Shown: piece after piece, positions 18,878-64,000 of the stretch
Numbering within the stretch: position 1 is the stretch's first letter
Layout: every line of letters begins with the position of its first letter
Origin: Nitrosarchaeum sp.
Lineage (GTDB): Archaea; Thermoproteota; Nitrososphaeria; Nitrososphaerales; Nitrosopumilaceae
NCBI GenBank assembly: GCA_023265135.1
Contig: JAHFUM010000006.1
Coordinates: 9,232 to 73,231, forward strand
DNA: 64,000 bases
Direction: 5' to 3'
The notes under the pieces: generated by a model
Told to the model about the DNA's origin: nothing
Database searches by the model: none
What the model saw: the letters and a program-made list of their open reading frames with translations, nothing else
Made by a program: the position numbers and the translations under genes

Positions 18878-19609
18878 ATGGCAGAAGTGACAATATTTGT
18901 AGCTCTAATTGCTGGCCTAGGATCATTTGTTGCTCCCTGTATATTGCCAATGATTCCAGCTTTTCTTGCATACATATCAGGTACTACAGTAACAGAACTT
19001 GGTTCTAAAAGTGGCTCTGTCATCTCAATTAACAGAACAGGCATAATTCTAAATACAATATTTTTTGTGCTGGGATTTTCAGTTGTATTTTCAGCTTTGG
19101 GTGTTTTGATTAATAGCGTTCTATCAAATACTGCTGCCGACATATCACAAAGTCTAAACTATATTGGAGGAATAATCATCATCGCATTTGGAGTATTCTT
19201 GTTATTATCAACAAAGATTAGGGCACTAAATGTAGAAAAGAAATTTTTCCCGAATAGAAAAAAATCTAGTTATCCATTATCATTTGTATTTGGTCTTGCT
19301 TTTGCAGCTGGATGGACTCCATGTGTGGGTCCTATACTTGGAACGATTCTAACTTTGGCTGCAACTACTCCGTCAGTATCATTTCATTTACTTCTTGCAT
19401 ATTCTATGGGATTAGGAATTCCATTTATTCTAATGGGAATATTTTTCTCAAGAGCAACAAGAATAATTCGAGCGATGAGTAAACATCTAAAATATTATAA
19501 TTTAATTCTAGGTGGATTTATCATAGTTTTGGGAATTCTAGTATTTACAAATCAACTTGCATACATTGCAAATTTTCCACTTCTAAATAATCTGGTATTG
19601 TTAGGTTGA
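18878..19609 (+). CDS. CcdA/DsbD-type thiol-disulfide membrane protein
   Basis: The 243-residue protein has six or seven membrane helices. It carries the two conserved cysteine sites of CcdA, in GSFVAPCILPMIPAFLAYISG (helix 1) and AAGWTPCVGPILGTILTLA (helix 4). These shuttle electrons from cytoplasmic thioredoxin across the membrane. It is followed four bases later by an exported thioredoxin-like gene, so the pair forms a reductant-delivery system for extracytoplasmic proteins or haem-protein maturation. ATG at 18878 was chosen. Confidence 0.93.
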   Translation: MAEVTIFVALIAGLGSFVAPCILPMIPAFLAYISGTTVTELGSKSGSVISINRTGIILNTIFFVLGFSVVFSALGVLINSVLSNTAADISQSLNYIGGIIIIAFGVFLLLSTKIRALNVEKKFFPNRKKSSYPLSFVFGLAFAAGWTPCVGPILGTILTLAATTPSVSFHLLLAYSMGLGIPFILMGIFFSRATRIIRAMSKHLKYYNLILGGFIIVLGILVFTNQLAYIANFPLLNNLVLLG

Positions 19610-19613
19610 TTAG

Positions 19614-20738
19614 ATGAAATCAGAAATAAAGACTCCATTAATTTTAGGACTAGTAATTTTAGCTGCTGTGATTGTTGTCAGTCTTTCATTATCTGTGTTA
19701 GATTCACACTCACAACAAACTCTTGGAAACATATCAGATGAATCTAAAACATCAAATGCTGAACAAAAAATTAGCAAACTGGGATACAAAAAAGCACCTG
19801 AATTGGTAGGAATTTCAGGATACATCAACACATTACCTGATGAACTACAAAAGAAAATACATAATCATGTTGTACTTTATGATATTTGGACGTATAGCTG
19901 CATTAACTGTGTCAGAACTCTTCCATTTATCACAGCGTGGGATGAAAAATACTCCGATCAGGGTTTATTGATAATCGGCATTCATTCCCCTGAATTTGAA
20001 TTTGAAAAAGACATTGAAAATGTAAAGACCGCTGTTACAAAATATGGAATTCATTATCCAGTGGTATTAGACAATGATAAAAAAACTTGGGATGCATTTG
20101 AAAACAATTACTGGCCAAGAAAATACATTGCAGATTATGAAGGATACATCAGATATGATCATATTGGCGAAGGAGGATATGATGAAACAGAAAAAGTTAT
20201 TCAGAAACTTCTCAAAGAGAGATCAGATTCTATGGGAATGAACATGACAGTAAGCGGAGAATTAATTCAGGTAAATGAATTTGAGCATTCACTTACTATG
20301 ACTCCAGAATTATATTTTGGGTACAATTTTGCATCTGGGAGAAATCAACTAGGAAATTCAGAGGGATTCATTCCAAATCAAAATGTTACATATGCCACAC
20401 CTGAATCACTTACTCTTCATCACTTTTACTTGGATGGAACTTGGACTAATTTAGAAGGTAGTATGAGACTAGTTTCAGATTCTGGTCGGATTGTTTTACC
20501 GTACAGTGGTAAAGAAGTGAATATAGTAACAGGTGGAGAAGCAAACTTGAAAATATTACTTGATGGAAAATTAATCACATCTGAAACTGCAGGAGAAGAT
20601 GTAGATACAAATGGACAAGTGCATACACATTATTCAGGTCTATACAATATTGTTAAAACAAACAAATCCGAACAACACACACTTGAAATTGTTGTAAATA
20701 ATCCAGGATTTGAGATGTTTACATTCACATTTGGCTGA
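19614..20738 (+). CDS. DipZ/TlpA-like membrane-anchored thioredoxin with C-terminal beta domain
   Basis: The protein begins with a membrane anchor (residues 9-28). Residues about 60-200 are a thioredoxin fold with the motif WTYSCINCVRTLPF (Cys96 and Cys99). The rest (about 220-374) is the beta-rich domain found at the C-terminus of DipZ-type proteins (LTLHHFYLDGTWTNLEGSM, VNIVTGGEANLKILLDGK). It should act outside the membrane as a disulfide reductase or isomerase that receives electrons from the CcdA-like protein encoded four bases upstream. The target proteins are unknown; the local cysteine-rich exported protein at 59.7-60.9 kb is one candidate by inference. Confidence 0.92.
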   Translation: MKSEIKTPLILGLVILAAVIVVSLSLSVLDSHSQQTLGNISDESKTSNAEQKISKLGYKKAPELVGISGYINTLPDELQKKIHNHVVLYDIWTYSCINCVRTLPFITAWDEKYSDQGLLIIGIHSPEFEFEKDIENVKTAVTKYGIHYPVVLDNDKKTWDAFENNYWPRKYIADYEGYIRYDHIGEGGYDETEKVIQKLLKERSDSMGMNMTVSGELIQVNEFEHSLTMTPELYFGYNFASGRNQLGNSEGFIPNQNVTYATPESLTLHHFYLDGTWTNLEGSMRLVSDSGRIVLPYSGKEVNIVTGGEANLKILLDGKLITSETAGEDVDTNGQVHTHYSGLYNIVKTNKSEQHTLEIVVNNPGFEMFTFTFG

Positions 20739-30710: not shown

Positions 30711-31133
30711 TTGGAAAGAAAAAAAATCATAATAGCCTCAATCATTGTAATGATCTTAGGAATAGCATCAGGCGTTGTAATTTTATCACAAAATTCTCAT
30801 CTTGGTCAAGATCCTGATGCACATAAAACTATCAAAGGTGATGTTGTAATGTCTACAAAAGTATCCCGACCAGGGTGTGAAAAAACTGATTCATGTTATA
30901 CTCCATCTAAATTTGTAATCAAACAAGGCAATTCAGTTACTTGGGTAAATCAAGATGTTGCATTTCATAGTGTTACTTCTGGTCATTATGGTGAACCGAG
31001 TGGGCTTTTTGATAGTGGATATTTAGATCCTGAGGGATCATTCACATTTAATTTTAAAAATATTGGAACTTATGATTATTTTTGTACGTTACATCCTTGG
31101 ATGAAGGGAACTGTAATTGTTGAATTGACATAA
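30711..31133 (+). CDS. Exported blue copper (cupredoxin) protein
   Basis: TTG at 30711 opens 140 residues with a signal anchor (IIIASIIVMILGIASGVVIL). A plastocyanin/azurin-type domain follows: FVIKQGNSVTWVNQDVAFHSV supplies the first histidine, and YDYFCTLHPWMKGTVIVEL gives Cys, His and Met copper ligands. A GCEKTDSCYTP cysteine pair may be a disulfide. Small cupredoxins are numerous in ammonia-oxidising archaea, where they serve extracytoplasmic electron transfer. The partner is not shown here. Confidence 0.93.
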   Translation: MERKKIIIASIIVMILGIASGVVILSQNSHLGQDPDAHKTIKGDVVMSTKVSRPGCEKTDSCYTPSKFVIKQGNSVTWVNQDVAFHSVTSGHYGEPSGLFDSGYLDPEGSFTFNFKNIGTYDYFCTLHPWMKGTVIVELT

Positions 31134-55522: not shown

Positions 55523-57616
55523 TTAAACTCTGGCCCTTTGAAATTTAGCCAAATCTGACTTTGTAAGAACATTCTGATACTGTCGTATTCTTTCAGCAAT
55601 TAATCTGTATAATGATCTAAATTGGTCCTTGGTTTTATCTGACAAGAAATCTGTCTCTTCTAAGGTGATTTTTTCACAAATATATCGTGTTATTTCTTCA
55701 TTGTCGAATTGACCCCAATAGTCATCCCTGTGATCCTCCCAAATTTTTTTCAAACTCTCCAAAACTCCTTTCCTTTCCTTTGAGGTAACATCGCGAGGGA
55801 TGAGATTTGAATAACCCTCTTTTCTCAATCTAATTTCATATGTTTGATTAACAGCATACAGATAATCTTCTAGAACCATATAATCCTCAATTGACTCTAA
55901 ATTCTTTCCTTCTCTCTCAAAAAATATTGTTTGAATTGGTGAGAATTCATTTGATACTAACTGAGCTGAAATTTGTTTAGATTCTTCTGAATTATCCAAT
56001 AAAATAAATGTCCTATACCCATGATTTCTGTAAAAAATTGCTAGAGGTAATACTGAATTTTTGTTGTATGCAGCTACCACATTTAGTGGATTCATTGAAA
56101 TATTTGGATCTTGTAAAAATTTATCAAAAGCATTTAGGTACATTGCATCAGACATTGTTTCTACAATTATCACTGGTCTGGAATTAGTTCCAATCTCTCT
56201 GTCTACAATCGATTCAACTAATCCTCTGGATAAACCGTATAGAATAGGAGTTAGAGTTTTATCATCTGCATTCCAGTAATCATAAAAAATTTTACTAAGA
56301 TGTTTTCGTTTATCTAATTCTACTACCAGTAAGTTTCCAGGTGTGTAATCAAAAATCATGAATGGTGAATGAGTAGCATACAAAACTTGATTTGATCCTG
56401 CCAAATTCTTCAATAAATCTGAAATTCCTCTCTGCTGTGTAGGGTGAAGATTTCTTGCAGGCTCGTCAAGAAGCAATATGGCTTCTTTTAACTCAGCCCT
56501 TTGTGTCTCTGCTGCAAAGTTTACAATAAAAGAAAATGTCCATTTGAATCCCTCAGCTCTTCTATTTAACAAACCTGTATTTGTTACAGTTCCATCACGA
56601 TGAATGTCTGAAATTACAACACTCATAATATTTCCTGGATTGTATCTCAAATCAACATGGATTGGGTCTCCTTTCCATGCTGGATTTAATTTCTTAGTTA
56701 ATCTGTTACTTGCAGTATTGAGAAGTTTGATGCATTTTGATGGTGTACCTTTGACTTCATCTAGTGCTTTAATGTCCAATTCTGCTAAATAGAAAAGATT
56801 TCTTACAGTTTCAGCCTTGTCAAATTCCTCAACAAATTCAATGGAATTTGCCCACTCTCCTTTTTCCTCTCGAAGATATTCATTTAGATTGATATTGCCG
56901 TAGATTTTTTTGTAATCTGAAAAATATACAAAACGAGGATGCAATTCTGATGCAATAAAGTTATCCAAAGCTGATTTTTCACTCTCTCCACTTAGAAGTT
57001 TAGAAAACTGATTTTCAGGACTTTCATAGATCTTTTCCCACTCTTCGATAACTTTTGGTTCTTGTACTGCAATTACGTGGAATTGATTGCTAAATTCTGC
57101 CATTCCACTATCGAAGACTTCCTGATTTTTCGGTGAAGGACCTTCAAATAATCTTGTATCAATTTGAATTCTAAGATGATTTGGAATTGTATCTAAAAAA
57201 TTTAATATTTGTTTTGAAAAATTTTCCCAAGAGTTTATCTCTCTATTTTTCTCTTCACTAATTTGAATATCTTCAAATTCATATTGGACTTTGGGTTTTT
57301 TATTAGTTCTAAATAATTTTATTCTCTTTATTTCAGGCAAACCCGGAAATGCTTGTTTAAGTAATCTGATTTCATTTGAACTTAATTCAAAATCTCCTTC
57401 TGCTAGTATGACTTCTCCTTTGAGTTCTTCTGATAGTTCATCACAAAGATCTAATTCTGAAACCCTCTCATCCCTATTCAATAAAGTCAGTGCTTGAAGA
57501 ATTGTTGTTTTTCCACTCTCATTTCTTCCAACAAAAGCTGCTAAATCACCAACCGTAATTTCGCCGGAATCATGAATGCAACGATATGCTCTAACTCTAA
57601 ATTTTCTAAGTCGCAT
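55523..57616 (-). CDS. OLD-family ATP-dependent nuclease
   Basis: The 697-residue protein combines a RecF-like ABC ATPase with a Toprim nuclease domain. Walker A is FVGRNESGKTTIL (residues 28-40), the later ATPase part has ILLLDEPARNLHPTQQRGI and NQVLYATHSPFM, and the Toprim region begins RPVIIVETMSDAMYLN with FILLDNSEESK. This is a class 1 OLD protein without a UvrD-like gaj partner next to it. OLD proteins are associated with phage defence and DNA processing. The gene is isolated between the surface-protein and an exported gene. Confidence 0.9.
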   Translation of the reverse strand: MRLRKFRVRAYRCIHDSGEITVGDLAAFVGRNESGKTTILQALTLLNRDERVSELDLCDELSEELKGEVILAEGDFELSSNEIRLLKQAFPGLPEIKRIKLFRTNKKPKVQYEFEDIQISEEKNREINSWENFSKQILNFLDTIPNHLRIQIDTRLFEGPSPKNQEVFDSGMAEFSNQFHVIAVQEPKVIEEWEKIYESPENQFSKLLSGESEKSALDNFIASELHPRFVYFSDYKKIYGNINLNEYLREEKGEWANSIEFVEEFDKAETVRNLFYLAELDIKALDEVKGTPSKCIKLLNTASNRLTKKLNPAWKGDPIHVDLRYNPGNIMSVVISDIHRDGTVTNTGLLNRRAEGFKWTFSFIVNFAAETQRAELKEAILLLDEPARNLHPTQQRGISDLLKNLAGSNQVLYATHSPFMIFDYTPGNLLVVELDKRKHLSKIFYDYWNADDKTLTPILYGLSRGLVESIVDREIGTNSRPVIIVETMSDAMYLNAFDKFLQDPNISMNPLNVVAAYNKNSVLPLAIFYRNHGYRTFILLDNSEESKQISAQLVSNEFSPIQTIFFEREGKNLESIEDYMVLEDYLYAVNQTYEIRLRKEGYSNLIPRDVTSKERKGVLESLKKIWEDHRDDYWGQFDNEEITRYICEKITLEETDFLSDKTKDQFRSLYRLIAERIRQYQNVLTKSDLAKFQRARV

Positions 57617-58228: not shown

Positions 58229-59074
58229 ATGGCAAAGAAAAAAGATAAACTATCTGAGGATATGGCAATACAAGAATCTAAAGAAAAGAAACCAACAAAG
58301 GAACTAGCTAAAGAAAAAAAACCAGCAAAGGAACTAGCTAAAGAAAAGAAACCAACAAAAGAGATAGTCAAAGAAAAAAAACCAGCAAAGGAACTAGCTA
58401 AAGAAAAGAAACCAACAAAAGAGATAGTCAAAGAAAAGAAACCAACAAAGGAACTAGCTAAAGAAAAGAAACCAACAAAAGAGATAGTCAAAGAAAAGAA
58501 ACCAACAAAGGAACTAGCTAAAGAAAAGAAACCAACAAAGGAACTAGCTAAAGAAAAGAAACCAACAAAAAAAGAACCACTGCCTAAAGAAAAAAAGCTA
58601 ACAAAGAAAGAACTGGAAGAAATTAAAAAAGAAGCTGAAAAAACATTAGAAGAAGAATTAGAAGAACAACTAACTGACGAAGAGATTGAAAATTTCCAAA
58701 TTGAGAAAGTTGACATGGAAAGACTCACAAACAAAATCTGTGATGTTTTAGCCGAACGTGAATCTCAAGGAATGTTTCAAAGTGAATTATGGAAAAAACT
58801 TAAACTTACAAGTAGAGATGGTTCTAGACTTGCATTAAAACTAGAAAGAATGGGAACTATTTACAGAGAAAAGATTCTAGACAAAGGCCGTTGGACATAC
58901 AAATTAATTCTTAAAAAGACACCCATTAGCACTCTGTCAATTGAGAATGCGCCTTGCCTTGTTTGTCCTGTGGAACAAAAGTGTTCACTTGAAGGAGAAA
59001 TCAGTCCTCGTAATTGTCAATTTATTGAAGACTGGGTACTTGCTGACATGAAAAAACCTGCGAAAGTCAAATGA
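58229..59074 (+). CDS. RPC34-like transcription/RNA polymerase subunit homologue
   Basis: ATG at 58229 gives 281 residues. The first 17 residues are followed by ten 10-residue repeats (KEKKPTKELA-like), then a lysine- and glutamate-rich helix. Residues about 170-235 form a winged helix (MERLTNKICDVLAERESQ, LWKKLKLTSRDGSRLALKLERM). The C-terminal motif APCLVCPVEQKC ... ISPRNC has cysteines at 243, 246, 252 and 263. A winged helix plus this iron-sulfur type motif is the pattern of RPC34/RPC6, known in Crenarchaeota and Thaumarchaeota. Its precise role in archaeal transcription is not established here. It overlaps ftsJ by four bases. Confidence 0.87.
   Translation: MAKKKDKLSEDMAIQESKEKKPTKELAKEKKPAKELAKEKKPTKEIVKEKKPAKELAKEKKPTKEIVKEKKPTKELAKEKKPTKEIVKEKKPTKELAKEKKPTKELAKEKKPTKKEPLPKEKKLTKKELEEIKKEAEKTLEEELEEQLTDEEIENFQIEKVDMERLTNKICDVLAERESQGMFQSELWKKLKLTSRDGSRLALKLERMGTIYREKILDKGRWTYKLILKKTPISTLSIENAPCLVCPVEQKCSLEGEISPRNCQFIEDWVLADMKKPAKVK
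58280..58579 (+). repeat. Ten in-frame 30-bp tandem repeats
   Basis: Ten nearly identical 30-base units encode KEKKPTKELA, KEKKPAKELA, KEKKPTKEIV or KEKKPTKKEP variants. The T-A and ELA-EIV changes alternate in a patchwork. The tract lies in the N-terminus of the RPC34-like gene and also creates a long false frame on the opposite strand. Confidence 0.97.
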
Positions 59075-59664
59075 AGCTTATAGATGCACGACGAGATCAA
59101 TATCGAAAATTAGCTCACGAACAAGGATTTCGAAGTAGGGCTGCGTACAAACTCAAACAACTAAATCATTCTTATCGAATAATTGGACCTGGATTTTATG
59201 TTCTTGATTTGGGGTGTGCGCCTGGTGGTTGGACTCAAATGGCAGTCAAATTGGTCGGCAACAAAGGCAAGGTCATGGGTATTGATACATCATATGTAGA
59301 AGAAATTCCTGGGGCTCATATTATTAGAGAAAATATTGAAAACGAGTTTACAGTTGATGAAATTTTATCTTATTTTGAAAGAAAAGTTAATGCTGTAATA
59401 TGTGATCTTTCTCCACAAATTACTGGTAACTGGACTGTTGATCACGCAATACAAATTTCATTGAATTATGAATGTGCAAAAATTATGGACAAAGTTTTAA
59501 TGCATAGAGGAAATGCAATCTTCAAAGTTTTTGACGGGGAATACTCGATGGAATTTAAGGACTATATCAAAAAAAAATTTGCAAGAATAAATCTTACAAA
59601 GCCTGAAGCAAGCAGAAAACAAAGCAGTGAATTATACTATGTCTGCTTGGGATTTACTGGCTGA
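59071..59664 (+). CDS. FtsJ/RrmJ-type 2'-O-ribose methyltransferase
   Basis: The 197-residue SAM-dependent enzyme methylates 23S rRNA (or tRNA) ribose. Motifs are YKLKQLNHSYRI, VLDLGCAPGGWTQMAV (SAM site), ICDLSPQITGNW, and IFKVFDGEYSMEF, with the K-D-K-E catalytic tetrad expected in RRAAYKL, VICDLS, IFKVF and SRKQSSELYYV. The tail SSELYYVCLGFTG is encoded by a segment duplicated 1.4 kb downstream. The start overlaps the RPC34-like gene. Confidence 0.94.
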   Translation: MKLIDARRDQYRKLAHEQGFRSRAAYKLKQLNHSYRIIGPGFYVLDLGCAPGGWTQMAVKLVGNKGKVMGIDTSYVEEIPGAHIIRENIENEFTVDEILSYFERKVNAVICDLSPQITGNWTVDHAIQISLNYECAKIMDKVLMHRGNAIFKVFDGEYSMEFKDYIKKKFARINLTKPEASRKQSSELYYVCLGFTG

Positions 59665-59710: not shown

Positions 59711-60916
59711 TCAAATTAACGGGCTGTTTTCAAGACTTGCGTTGAGGCATGTTTCAGAATATTTTTGATTTTCTGCTTTGGCACACTCTTGCTGCCTAAA
59801 TTCATCACTCGAATCTTTGGATAACAGTATGATCCATTTTCCTATTCCATCATAACAATCATTTTTAAACTCAGTAGGCAAAGATTTGCAAAATGAAAAT
59901 CCTTTGTCTGTATTTGTCCCGCCATTTACCATCGTTAAAAGCATCCCTTTTAGACAATAGCTGTGGTACTCTGATTTTTGACCGTCTGTGCAAAATCGAA
60001 CAGCATCATTTACATTATTTTTAATATCTGATTCCAGCTCCCTTCCAAATCCGTAATAACAATACTTGATCATCTCTTGAGGTACTATTTTGTCACAATC
60101 ATCAAAGGTCTTTTTTATGTAACCATCGTTAAGTCGGGCAAGATATGACACATGATAGTGATAACAAGCAGGTGCTCTTTTAGGGTCTACGGCATCACAA
60201 GGATAAAAAATATCATCCTTATCAAAGTCACCTTTTCCTGTTTCAAAGTAATCAACTTCGTTTTGCATAAAGATTCCTTTTGAGCAGCTTAACTGTTCGA
60301 TTTCTCCATCAAATTCATCACATCTTTTTACTGCGGATAAAACATCGTTTGGATATACTTGTGACAAACCATGACCAAGTCCATGCAGACACTGCCAATG
60401 TTCAATGTAGTTAGGATTTTCTCCAGTTCTTGGACAAATGGCTTTCAGGTCAAGATCTTCTGGTCCCTTGCCGTGAAATTGCTCTGATAACAAATAATTT
60501 TCAATTACACCATGAAATATTCCTCCACCACAAACTTGATCAGAATACGAGAGTGCTTCAGTAACATTTCCGAGATATGCATAAAACCACATTCCCATGT
60601 GGTGAGCCAATTCATGACAAGAATATTTTTTGCTATAAAGTTTAAGGGTATCATCGAATGTTTCAACGATTTTCTTTTTTTCCGAGACTTGAGAAATAGA
60701 TTGTAATGACATTACTGCACAATGTACGTCTTCTTTGCAGTTTTCTAAGATTTGAGGTGCAAATGGTTTGTCAGAATAAAGTTGGAAATTTTCCTGTTCT
60801 ACCATTATAGGTTTTTCAAAAATCTGACCTCCACCAGATAGAAATAAAAAGTAAATCGCCGAAACTGAAACTCCCACTAGGAGTAAAAGGGATGATTTTT
60901 TTTTAGTAAACTTCAA
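59711..60916 (-). CDS. Exported cysteine- and histidine-rich repeat protein
   Basis: TTG at 60916 opens 401 residues with a signal anchor (SLLLLVGVSVSAIYFLFL). The rest contains 18 cysteines spread in a regular way. At least seven times a cysteine is followed by a glycine-aromatic turn: CGGGIFHGVIE, CLHGLGHGLSQ, CSKGIFMQNE, CYHYHVSYLA, CYYGFGREL, CLKGMLLTM, CYDGIGKWI. Near residue 100 lies CHELAHHMG. This points to about seven or eight tandem helical repeats of roughly 40 residues with conserved cysteines, outside the cell. The HExxH-like CHELAHH could bind zinc. It is flanked by direct repeats of the ftsJ/trm1 junction, so it was inserted there. The function is unknown. Confidence 0.85.
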   Translation of the reverse strand: MKFTKKKSSLLLLVGVSVSAIYFLFLSGGGQIFEKPIMVEQENFQLYSDKPFAPQILENCKEDVHCAVMSLQSISQVSEKKKIVETFDDTLKLYSKKYSCHELAHHMGMWFYAYLGNVTEALSYSDQVCGGGIFHGVIENYLLSEQFHGKGPEDLDLKAICPRTGENPNYIEHWQCLHGLGHGLSQVYPNDVLSAVKRCDEFDGEIEQLSCSKGIFMQNEVDYFETGKGDFDKDDIFYPCDAVDPKRAPACYHYHVSYLARLNDGYIKKTFDDCDKIVPQEMIKYCYYGFGRELESDIKNNVNDAVRFCTDGQKSEYHSYCLKGMLLTMVNGGTNTDKGFSFCKSLPTEFKNDCYDGIGKWIILLSKDSSDEFRQQECAKAENQKYSETCLNASLENSPLI

Positions 60917-61031: not shown

Positions 61032-61120
61032 AGAAAAAAGCAGTGAATTGCACTATTGTTTGGGATTTACTGGCATATCTGAGAAGATTTTGATTATTTC
61101 ATTTATGTTGGCATTTGTTC
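61032..61120 (+). repeat. Direct repeat copy B at the trm1 3' end
   Basis: This 89-base copy encodes, on the plus strand, a remnant of the FtsJ tail (SSELHYCLGFTG, one codon shorter) without a gene around it. On the minus strand it encodes the true Trm1 C-terminus (DMPVNPKQ stop). It matches 59614-59705. Confidence 0.85.
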
Positions 61121-62216
61121 TAAAACCTGTAGGACAAAATGAAGTTGGACTAGCTAAATATCCATTCTTTTGTAAATTTTTTATTGCGTCTTCTAATTTT
61201 GGAGGGGATGCTTTCATTTTTGAAGCAATTTCATCAAGTGTAACGTAAATTCCAGGCATTTCAGATTCTGCAAGACACTTTTGCAATGTTTTTTCACAAA
61301 CTTTGTCTACCGTTAGTTCTGGTATTTTTAAAATCATACTTTCTACAAATTCCTTGTCAAAAATATTGTCAATCCACAATGGTCCCCCTACACTGATTTT
61401 TGATTTACACAATTCACATTCATTGCTTTGTTCATGTGTTATTTTTCTATGGCCGCAGTTTTTACAATGTAATATGTATCCTATATTCTCTTTTTGATCC
61501 TGTCTGATGAGAACTCGTACATATGTTCTGTAATAATGCATGTTGCTTTCTGCAAATAACGGAACAATTTCCACACCTAATCTTCCTGCGACCATCCTCA
61601 GACATCCTAAAATTAATCGAATTGCCATCTCATTGCCATATTCGACTCTTATTGGAACTCCGCCATACTTTCTCTTGCATGCACTTTGGTAAAGCCCGTT
61701 TAGCACCTGAAGATCCGTGGCTGTAGTAGAGAGAATTCCACCATGCATGGTAGCCCTTATTGCACAATCAAAAAACTGTGATGAAGACCCAAACGGATCA
61801 ATGTCTATAATTGAGCCTCTTTCCCCACCTGTTGAATATTTGCTAAAAAATCTACATACTTCTAATTCGGAATATTCTATATTTTTTAAATTGTTTAACT
61901 GTGCTGAATACTCTGCTAATTTTAATGCCGTTGGATTTAGATCATTGATCACTACCTTGTCAACTTTTAATTCATTTGCAACTCGTAATCCTCTGATGCC
62001 TACTCCTGATAATCCCTCCAAAAATATTTTTGGTCCTGCAAAATTTTTCAGAAAAGCTCCGTATGCAATTATAGAATAATCTCTGTTCAGTCTTGCTCTT
62101 GGATTGAAAAATGCCGGTTCTTTTGGTGGAACTTTGTCTGTCATTGATTTTTTTGGCACCCATACTTTTGTTTGCCCTTCGGTAATTTCCTGGAACGTTT
62201 CATCTGGAATTTGCAA
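61053..62216 (-). CDS. trm1: tRNA (guanine26-N2)-dimethyltransferase Trm1
   Basis: Trm1 dimethylates G26 of many tRNAs. The 387 residues have a SAM-binding Rossmann core: PAFFNPRARLNRDYSII, FLEGLSGVGIRGLRVANEL, VVINDLNPTALKLAEYSA, IDIDPFGSSSQFFDCAI and STTATDLQVLNG. A zinc site (LHCKNCGHRK, CELCKSK) and C-terminal winged domain follow. Its last codons lie in the duplicated segment. ATG at 62216 faces rnhB across a short divergent gap. Confidence 0.95.
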   Translation of the reverse strand: MQIPDETFQEITEGQTKVWVPKKSMTDKVPPKEPAFFNPRARLNRDYSIIAYGAFLKNFAGPKIFLEGLSGVGIRGLRVANELKVDKVVINDLNPTALKLAEYSAQLNNLKNIEYSELEVCRFFSKYSTGGERGSIIDIDPFGSSSQFFDCAIRATMHGGILSTTATDLQVLNGLYQSACKRKYGGVPIRVEYGNEMAIRLILGCLRMVAGRLGVEIVPLFAESNMHYYRTYVRVLIRQDQKENIGYILHCKNCGHRKITHEQSNECELCKSKISVGGPLWIDNIFDKEFVESMILKIPELTVDKVCEKTLQKCLAESEMPGIYVTLDEIASKMKASPPKLEDAIKNLQKNGYLASPTSFCPTGFRTNANINEIIKIFSDMPVNPKQ

Positions 62217-62277: not shown

Positions 62278-62898
62278 ATGCAAATTTGTGGAGTTGATGA
62301 TGCTGGACGCGGCTCCATGTTGGGGCCTCTTGTGATTGCAGGAATATCTTTGGAGAAAACCAATATTCACAAACTATCTTTATTGGGTGTTAAAGACTCA
62401 AAGCAACTATCTCCAAAATCAAGAGAGGAACTTTATAAAAAAATAATTATTCTAGTGGATGACTATTACGTTGCAAAAATTTCTCCAAAATCCATTGACG
62501 CCAGTGTCAAGAAACATGGTCTCAATCATCTTGAAGCCAAATACATGGCAAAAGTTATCTCAAAATTAAATCCAGATATTTCATACGTTGATTCATGCGA
62601 CGTTAATCCACAAAGATTTGGAAAAGAAATTGCAAAATTATCCAATAACAAAATAAAATCATATCACCATGCAGACAGTAGGTTTGTTGTAGTTTCTGCT
62701 GCATCTATAATTGCCAAAGTCACCCGAGATAGAGCGATAGACAAACTCCGGAAAAACCATGATTTGGGAAGTGGGTATCCGTCTGACTCTAAAACCATTA
62801 ATTTTGTCAAATCATATTATGAGAAAAACCATATACTTCCCGTTTTTGTGCGTAAAAGTTGGAAGCCGACCCAAAAAATACTAAATAAATCACTTTAG
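62278..62898 (+). CDS. rnhB: Ribonuclease HII
   Basis: RNase HII cuts RNA in DNA hybrids and removes single ribonucleotides. The 206 residues begin at ATG 62278 with MQICGVDDAGRGSMLGPLVIAGISL (two metal residues). The later acidic residues lie in ISYVDSCDVNP and HHADSRFVVVSAASIIAKVTRDR, and HDLGSGYPSD follows. The GTG at 62257 is a less likely start. The end overlaps the convergent fibrillarin gene by nine bases. Confidence 0.95.
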   Translation: MQICGVDDAGRGSMLGPLVIAGISLEKTNIHKLSLLGVKDSKQLSPKSREELYKKIIILVDDYYVAKISPKSIDASVKKHGLNHLEAKYMAKVISKLNPDISYVDSCDVNPQRFGKEIAKLSNNKIKSYHHADSRFVVVSAASIIAKVTRDRAIDKLRKNHDLGSGYPSDSKTINFVKSYYEKNHILPVFVRKSWKPTQKILNKSL

Positions 62899-63564
62899 AA
62901 ACTTTGCAATTACCATTGCATGATCTTTATCATACGGAAGAAGGTCAATTACTTGCAATATCTCAAAATGGACTTTCATCTTTTCTATTTCTTCATCAAC
63001 TATTCTTCTTGGGGATTTTGTAACGTCGATACTTCTTGTTTTTATTACTAGAAAGAAATAACCTTCTTTTTTGAGATACATTTTACAATTTTCTATTGCG
63101 ATATTTGTTTGATCAGGCTGTGCAATGTCTACATATACAACATCCACTTTGCCAAACACTGAAAAATATTCTTTTGGTTTTCTTGCATCTTGTAAAATTG
63201 GAATTATATTTGATCTGTGTGATGCAACTCTGTCTAAAAAATCTCTTGCCACTCTACTTGCATGTTCAACTCCAAAAATAATTCCTGTAGGTCCAACTAT
63301 ATCTGAAATGTGACTAACAGTTGTACCAGTTGATACTCCTAAATACAGTACAGTTGATTTTTTTTTAAATGGAAATATTTCCAATCCATTCATTATTGCA
63401 GCAGCTAATTTGCTTCTAAATGGATCCCATGATCTGTATTCAATTCCTTTTTTTGTGATTAATTTTTCGCCGTACACTTGATTTCCGACAACAAAATTTT
63501 CAGTGGCTAGTTTTTTTTCACCGTCTGAGTTTATCCAAAAAAATTCATAATTATCTTCTTTCAA
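62890..63564 (-). CDS. flpA: Fibrillarin-like rRNA/tRNA 2'-O-methyltransferase
   Basis: Fibrillarin is the catalytic subunit of box C/D sRNPs. TTG at 63564 gives 224 residues beginning MKEDNYEFFWINSDGEKKLA, which fits the family. Further motifs are EYRSWDPFRSKLAAAI, VLYLGVSTGTTVSHISDIVG (SAM site), GVEHASRVARDFL, VYVDIAQPDQTNIA and FLVIKTRSIDV. A longer frame exists upstream to 63987, but its first 141 codons read a repeat tract that also codes in another frame, so they are rejected. The TTG overlaps the stop of the upstream gene. Confidence 0.92.
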   Translation of the reverse strand: MKEDNYEFFWINSDGEKKLATENFVVGNQVYGEKLITKKGIEYRSWDPFRSKLAAAIMNGLEIFPFKKKSTVLYLGVSTGTTVSHISDIVGPTGIIFGVEHASRVARDFLDRVASHRSNIIPILQDARKPKEYFSVFGKVDVVYVDIAQPDQTNIAIENCKMYLKKEGYFFLVIKTRSIDVTKSPRRIVDEEIEKMKVHFEILQVIDLLPYDKDHAMVIAKFLK

Positions 63565-64000
63565 ACTTCGTTCTCTTTTTATTTTTATTTGCCTTAGAGT
63601 CTGTTCTTTCTCTATAGTTTTTATTTTCTCTTTTAGCACCAGAACTTTCTCTTCTAGATTCTCCACCTTCCCTTCTGCCACCAGTACTTTCTCTTCTAGA
63701 ATCAGTACCACTCTCTCTTCTTCTGAAATCTCCACCTTCCCTTCTGCCACCAGTACTTTCTCTTCTAGAATCAGTACCACTCTCTCTTCTTCTGAAATCC
63801 CCACCTTCACGTCTAGGTTCTCTTTCTTCTCTTCTTCTGAAATCTCCTCCCTCTCTTCTAGAATCAGTACCACTCTCTCTTCTTCTGAAATCCCCACCTT
63901 CACGTCTGCCACCGAAACTTTCCCTTCTGCCACCCGTTCTCTCCCTTCTGAAATCCCCACCTTCACGTCTAGGTTCTCTTTCTTCACGTTTGAATAATTC
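63551..64000 (-). CDS. 3' end of an arginine/glycine-rich repeat protein, possibly Nop5
   Basis: A frame from the right edge runs 149 codons to TAA at 63551-63553. It encodes an RG- and RE-rich tail with near-repeats of RREGGDFRRRESGTDSRRE and RRESTGGRREGG, ending NKKRTKFERR. The start is beyond the window. Archaeal fibrillarin is usually preceded by nop5 (Nop56/58), and a repeat-rich basic tail on that protein would fit, but this is inference. It overlaps fibrillarin by 14 bases, so the two would be translated together. Low-complexity composition makes confirmation by sequence alone impossible. Confidence 0.6.
   Translation of the reverse strand, partial: ELFKREEREPRREGGDFRRERTGGRRESFGGRREGGDFRRRESGTDSRREGGDFRRREEREPRREGGDFRRRESGTDSRRESTGGRREGGDFRRRESGTDSRRESTGGRREGGESRRESSGAKRENKNYRERTDSKANKNKKRTKFERR
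63640..63990 (-). repeat. Imperfect tandem repeat tract upstream of fibrillarin
   Basis: Copies of units such as GGTGGAGATTTCAGAAGAAG and AGTGGTACTGATTCTAGAAG recur at intervals of 30-70 bases on the minus strand. All copies keep two reading frames open: the arginine-glycine frame and an acidic valine-rich frame that joins fibrillarin. Confidence 0.9.

Follow-up and report, generated by a model that had tools for sequence, protein, structure and literature searches.

The 64,000-nucleotide stretch of Nitrosarchaeum sp. DNA analyzed here (the window) carries, at positions 59711-60916 on the reverse strand, a single open frame with a TTG start that encodes a protein of 401 amino acids, predicted to be exported. 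As read by eye, its N-terminus has a short charged stretch followed by a hydrophobic segment at about residues 9-26 (60839-60892, reverse strand), in agreement with the membrane anchor proposed in the first-pass annotation of this DNA, and the frame holds exactly 18 cysteines, as had been counted there. The gene has a G+C content of 35.7% versus 32.6% for the window and is the one match in its own genome, both by single-protein search and by family profile. It is flanked by an FtsJ-family methyltransferase gene (59071-59664, forward strand) and a Trm1-family gene (61053-62216, reverse strand), neither of which suggests a function for it, and no copper gene was recognized beside it in the window. 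The surrounding DNA also contains a 30-bp tandem repeat (58278-58569) that encodes KEKKPTKELAKE-like repeats within the ORF preceding the FtsJ gene, tandem repeats (63625-63985) in the 5' part of an ORF at 62890-63987 on the reverse strand whose C-terminal half appears fibrillarin-like by eye, and an AAA_15 ATPase of the OLD/AbiEii-like kind (55523-57616).

The cysteines are arranged as nine pairs (60/66, 100/129, 161/176, 199/211, 240/251, 274/286, 309/321, 343/354, and 378/390), the last six of which mark helical repeats at residues 199-390 (59747-60322, reverse strand), as delimited by pair co-occurrence and the helices of an AlphaFold2 model. An internal repeat is evident from the spacing, with seven CxxG motifs where composition shuffles average 1.34 (one of 20000 shuffles reached seven), ten instances of cysteines 33-36 residues apart where random placement gives 2.6 on average (none of 20000 as often), and six instances of a spacing of 11-12 residues against a mean of 1.45 (33 of 20000 as often). 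The first-pass annotation had described at least seven segments of the form C-x-x-G-aromatic about 40 residues apart; the seven CxxG motifs are there, but an aromatic residue follows only one of them (CYYGF at 286), the other six being followed by I, L, I, Q, M, and I, and the period is about 35 residues instead. The repeat unit is better seen as a cysteine pair of which the second member opens a long helix.

Conservation was assessed in 48 family members with less than 80% identity to one another. The pairs 161/176, 199/211, 240/251, 274/286, and 309/321 are kept in all 48, 343/354 is kept in 47 (one gap), and 378/390 in 37 (11 gaps); Cys60 and Cys66 are both present in 30 members, both absent in one, and represented by Cys66 alone in three, the remainder being gapped. 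Cys100 and Cys129 occur together in 43 members and are both missing from five, which have two other cysteines nearby, and neither is ever found singly. Joint keeping or loss is how structural disulfides behave, and from this pattern in the alignment we infer that the pairs are probably disulfide bonded. No two cysteines of the protein are four apart (CxxxC) or three apart (CxxC), and hence it has no CxxCH.

Five histidines are held by three motifs. CHELAHHMG, already noted in the first-pass annotation, occupies residues 100-108 (60593-60619, reverse strand) with Cys100, His101, His105, and Gly108, its two conserved histidines being present in 48/48 members and Cys100 in 43/48. CGGGIFHG at residues 129-136 (60509-60532, reverse strand) contributes Cys129, His135, and Gly136, and CLHGLGHG at residues 176-183 (60368-60391, reverse strand) contributes Cys176, His178, and His182; His135, His178, and His182 are each found in 48/48 members and in 80/80 of a wider diverse set. 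All five histidines are kept in every one of the 48 nonredundant members and in 79 of the wider 80, very divergent array copies included, the lone exception being an N-terminally short ORF with gaps at H101 and H105. One repeat further on, FMQN at residues 216-219 (60260-60271, reverse strand) has Met217 in 46/48 and Asn219 in 48/48 members. Among the 80, position 217 is Met in 72 and otherwise N (n = 3), H (n = 2), D, I, or S (n = 1 each), mostly residues able to bind metal. Arg292 is present in 45/48 members, and the five histidines, Asn219, and Arg292 persist at about 25% identity, a strictness that supports a metal or active site at the histidines. An HExxH metalloprotease was rejected, as Glu102 is not conserved and the commonest residue at position 102 is R, in 22% of the 48.

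The position six residues after the second cysteine of the units is taken by H135, H182, M217, Ser (in the unit at 251), and R292, and the AlphaFold2 model has H135, H182, M217, and R292 in the long helices 128-147, 170-187, 205-226, and 280-298, respectively. In helix-pair solenoids, equivalent repeat positions stand side by side, and one common histidine site would therefore be the natural reading. A disulfide-stapled scaffold and a metal site had been put forward as alternatives for this protein; the family data favor both at once, a cysteine staple together with a histidine site.

AlphaFold2, run with 48 sequences, modeled the whole protein as a helical superhelix (pLDDT 86.7, pTM 0.85; 301 of 401 residues at 90 or above, residues 1-40 below 50) and the core of residues 78-264 with a pLDDT of 91.3 and a pTM of 0.88, in line with the helical-repeat character first suggested for it. 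Foldseek found no match in the PDB at E up to 0.001 with either the whole or the core model, and the highest Z scores from VIA were 8.1 (a designed repeat, matched over residues 264-397) and 7.0 (AlkD2), which is within the range of unrelated helical repeats. The model thus predicts with confidence a helical repeat superhelix without a recognized relative, which we do not claim as a new fold.

No profile covering the protein was found in any library tested, as expected from the original remark that no named family has this layout. For the 48 nonredundant members, Pfam-A gave three chance-level families only (best E 0.03) and NCBIfam one chance-level match (E 0.0085), PHROGs matched none of four proteins, the family profile found nothing better than E 0.6 among all PDB sequences, and the single-protein PDB search gave one chance match (E 1.1). 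One weak Pfam match in the 80 (E 6e-4) and the NCBIfam match in the 48 (E 0.0085), both to sulfur oxygenase reductase, are attributed to chance. Viral carriage was rejected, as patterns built on the single protein found no match in viral_contigs and PHROGs was equally negative for the four proteins, and a plasmid search gave two distant matches, the first bacterial relatives found. A literature search, which is weak evidence of absence, returned no title or abstract start describing the domain. Neither of the two outcomes named in the first-pass annotation as refuting, a known domain family over the whole protein or the lack of an internal repeat, was obtained. These results support the description of the gene product as an exported helical-repeat protein without a named family.

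A short-pattern scan of 84,980 species genomes gave 177 relatives among 230 matched stretches. By record titles, the best 80 of the 177, which were kept, come from archaea (ammonia-oxidizing Nitrosopumilaceae, Nitrosocosmicus, and Woesearchaeota) and from bacteria (Nitrospira, Binatota, Actinomycetota, Chloroflexota, Gemmatimonadota, many Patescibacteria lineages, and a Deinococcales bin). Single taxon labels may be wrong because many relatives are metagenome bins; a complete Nitrospira defluvii chromosome is among the relatives. This broad, unnamed family matches nothing in the libraries tested, yet it is present in both archaea and bacteria and its five histidines are almost invariant. Among sampled genomes, the family was matched in 43/400 of the window's class, in 9/198 of the phylum of the actinobacterial locus, in 9/192 of that of the Parcubacteria locus, and in 1/201 of that of the Chloroflexi locus (the centre genome alone), where each count includes the centre genome and the phylum names were inferred from locus titles.

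Within the window's own genus the distribution is patchy, with matches in 3 of 16 listed genomes, one having a fragment and one a long form. The protein of the window is a short form, and the long forms in other genomes of its taxonomic family (L012-L028) have about 490-530 amino acids; in these, calcium-type TSP_3 repeats precede the Cys-His core, and the C-terminus is extended by an additional part. Two Patescibacteria genomes of about 1 Mb (G1312 and G1309; L157-L161) have at least nine and at least six family genes, respectively, mostly in tandem arrays; some array genes have cupredoxin domains, and a free cupredoxin gene lies alongside. A relative in another archaeal genome (L005, L174) has an in-frame stop, and the gene may be decaying there.

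Domain fusions point to a recurrent link of the family with copper, which the first-pass annotation had not foreseen. They were surveyed in 80 full-length ORFs with less than 80% identity, a set that is not random and was partly hand-picked for long frames or arrays. Pfam (E up to 0.01) identified Cupredoxin_1 in 12, Cytochrome_CBB3 in seven, CopC in three, and CopD in one. By motif reading, 17 have a cupredoxin-like domain with WPASxxHPxH (15 N-terminal and two C-terminal) and seven a CxxCH cytochrome c, in a fused N-terminal domain only; motif and open-frame reading left 53 of the 80 without any of these fused domains (L115 counted as CopCD). The 47 nonredundant loci of a single genome scan gave eight cupredoxin and seven cytochrome c fusions. 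CopC-CopD fusions were seen in L070, L072, and L115-L118, and in the last four the family domain is preceded by CopC and by a membrane part of several helices resembling CopD; Pfam recognized CopC but not CopD in L116 and L118, and both in L072 in the same ORF as the family match. A Woesearchaeota ORF of 878 amino acids (L079, 2186-4819) contains the domain twice in tandem, with a cupredoxin at the C-terminus.

All 17 fused cupredoxin segments have an H-x-H near their end, in contrast to the C-x-x-H of the window's own cupredoxin (30711-31133). Because electron-carrying cupredoxins have Cys at this place, the fused segments resemble domains that bind copper more than ones that carry electrons. 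In a quick tree of 85 domains, the cytochrome fusions group in one clade (support 100) that also includes unfused members, the three CopCD fusions fall in a second clade (support 99), and the cupredoxin fusions are scattered among unfused rows in several sub-clades. When labels were counted on this tree with the 58 unfused rows ignored, one change per fusion type sufficed, so that independent origins of the cupredoxin fusions are not established. With copper importers, copper-binding domains, and cytochromes as fusion partners of its members, the family probably handles copper outside the membrane.

Gene neighborhoods were also compared. Twenty regions around archaeal relatives, read by eye, showed no steady copper neighbor; four short forms (L177-L180) share an HTH regulator gene at a distance of about 0.2 kb, and another kind of HTH gene is near several long forms. 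For the bacterial loci, 188 of 212 short-listed ORFs were scanned (122/148 in the first batch, plus two annotated Kitasatospora genes replacing overlapping ORFs, and 64/64 in the second), and the top 25 families per scan were mostly housekeeping, with DsbD_TM (n = 2), Cupredoxin_1 (n = 2), and Caa3_CtaG (n = 1) among them. After the copy on the Kitasatospora plasmid comes a gene with the annotation cytochrome c oxidase assembly protein, of the CtaG type.

According to the available passages of one paper, ammonia-oxidizing archaea rely heavily on copper, and Nitrosopumilus maritimus has been inferred to use a chaperone other than CopC (PMC7785015). In Bacillus subtilis, YcnJ consists of CopC, CopD, and YtkA (PMC12154828); its function depends on the residues with which the CopC and CopD parts bind copper, whereas the YtkA part assists in loading the CuA site (PMC13344008), as stated in the accessible parts of these sources. 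The former, in the same parts, leaves the site of Cu(II) reduction on import open (PMC12154828). Like the YtkA domain of YcnJ and like CtaK, the present domain is extracytoplasmic, with a proposed part in copper handling or loading, and in some members only (L070, L072, and L115-L118) it is also C-terminal to CopC-CopD (available passages of PMC12154828 and PMC13344008). It differs from YtkA (PF13115) in that none of the 48 members has a Pfam match to it and the family model is all-helical with cysteine pairs and five histidines. The same Pfam library does detect YtkA in the host's own CopC-CopD protein, a CopC-CopD-YtkA protein of 928 amino acids encoded on another contig (C21, L191, 16-2799, reverse strand) that ends in a virginiamycin-lyase-like propeller. 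The passages on YcnJ, together with the different domain in the place of YtkA, lead us to propose copper transfer for the histidine site, and the fusions of CopC and CopD with the domain are a direct, testable candidate for how copper reaches CopD.

Helicobacter Hcp has a layout of disulfide-tethered helix-turn-helix repeats outside the cytosol. A similar tethering outside the cytosol is found in human COA7, which in the available part of its description is a mitochondrial helical-repeat assembly factor with five disulfides that binds heme, works with the copper chaperones SCO1 and SCO2, and reduces their disulfides. The Sel1-like repeats of Hcp and COA7 (PF08238) had no Pfam match in the 48 members (E up to 0.1) or the 80 ORFs (E up to 0.01), and the cysteines are 11-12 residues apart in the family protein versus mostly 8-9 in COA7 in that part of the source. 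The cysteine period of 33-36 and the joint conservation of the pairs would fit Sel1-type disulfides, which link neighboring helices at a period near 36. Neither COA7 nor Hcp is among the structural matches listed for either model, which excludes nothing. By analogy only, and without a sequence or profile link, COA7 suggests that a stapled solenoid could do such work.

CopC and cupredoxin domains are beta folds. Both are exported copper binders found fused to the family domain, but the domain itself is helical and matches neither profile. The iron-linked EfeO is a cupredoxin fused to an imelysin-type helical metal domain in the envelope, and no imelysin family is among the Pfam matches of the 80 family proteins. 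Csp copper-storage proteins are cysteine-rich four-helix bundles with CxxxC motifs. They share many cysteines, a relation to copper, and presence in ammonia-oxidizing archaea with the family (available passages of PMC7785015), whereas the family protein is without CxxxC spacing and is modeled as an exported repeat solenoid instead of a four-helix bundle. From c-type cytochromes it differs in having no CxxCH in its own domain, the motif occurring only in the fused domain of 7/80.

We propose, with a probability of roughly one in two, that the protein is an exported, membrane-anchored copper handler in which a stapled scaffold and a histidine-rich metal site bind copper and pass it on. Up to nine disulfides would staple the helices into a curved solenoid, and the long helices of the first repeats would present the five invariant histidines, with the usually conserved methionine one repeat on, as a single site. 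This site may take copper from an extracytoplasmic donor, be it CopC, a cupredoxin domain of the His type, or ions in solution, and may hold it; an attached cytochrome c domain, where there is one, could perhaps set the oxidation state. From the site the copper could move on to copper enzymes or to an importer in the membrane, for example CopD. What is new is the family itself, together with its motif and predicted arrangement, copper handling being a known kind of process.

Some observations weigh against this reading: 53/80 members have none of the fused domains, the fused set was in part selected by hand, and no copper gene was recognized next to the gene in the window or, by eye, next to its archaeal relatives in the 20 regions. 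The strictness of the histidine set is more like that of an enzyme than of a simple carrier, which counts against the carrier reading and keeps an enzyme as its main rival. The His5-Met cluster would then be the catalytic center of a copper-dependent, perhaps dicopper, extracytoplasmic oxidoreductase such as a Cu(II) reductase or an oxidase, with fused cytochrome c giving or taking electrons and CopC-CopD or cupredoxin loading the copper. The near-invariance of the histidines, Asn219, and Arg292 at such low identity and the seven cytochrome c fusions speak for it, but no substrate or partner enzyme was seen and the H-x-H of the fused cupredoxins looks like that of binders, and we consider it rather unlikely, if worth keeping in view. 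More doubtful still is a wider formulation, that the family is an undescribed class of extracytoplasmic copper redox enzyme, with a dicopper-capable His5-Met center in a stapled solenoid where cytochrome c electrons would reduce or site-load copper for import by CopD and for copper enzymes, common to ammonia-oxidizing archaea, Nitrospira, and Patescibacteria, and amplified to nine or more genes in a single Patescibacteria genome (about 1 Mb).

Five histidines and a methionine could also bind zinc, iron, or heme, in an enzyme or a sensor, and COA7, in the available part of its description, is a stapled helical-repeat protein that binds heme; the fusions to CopC, CopD, and cupredoxin point to copper, however, HExxH is not conserved, and the protein has no CxxCH, which makes another metal or heme improbable. 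Very unlikely is a thiol-disulfide partner, a COA7-like reducer of copper-chaperone disulfides in which the cysteines are the working part. CcdA, TlpA, or DsbA-like genes do occur within 3 kb of family genes in L083, L086, L094, L099 (by similarity), and L160, where DsbA-like and DsbD-like genes (by eye, the second without a Pfam match) directly precede two family genes, but such genes may simply serve a protein rich in disulfides. Most cysteine pairs are invariant and repeat-spaced like structural disulfides, there is no CxxC motif, and the five histidines would be left unexplained. The CcdA and DipZ-like pair offered at the outset as a reduction route does exist in the window (18878-19609, forward strand, DsbD_TM E 1.3e-12; 19614-20738, forward strand, TlpA/DipZ-like, Thioredoxin_10 E 2.7e-31), but at about 40 kb from the family gene its link to it is weak. 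Least probable is a non-metal scaffold for surface display or protein binding, a common use of helical solenoids that would fit the joining of the domain to TSP_3 repeats in long forms (L014), as the five histidines in 79/80 are hard to explain without chemistry.

For the copper handler that we favor, oxidase assembly as the only role was weakened by the occurrence of COX1, which is over the cut-off in 9/192 Patescibacteria genomes and in 2/9 family-bearing ones (P = 0.059); as seven of these nine are without COX1, delivery to a heme-copper oxidase cannot be the sole role. Cupredoxin is present in 121/192 of the same genomes, so widespread that per-genome presence is uninformative there. In a Ryanbacteria bin (L089, 2451-3575), a beta-propeller-like exported protein, as read by eye, is encoded about 1 kb upstream of paired family genes.
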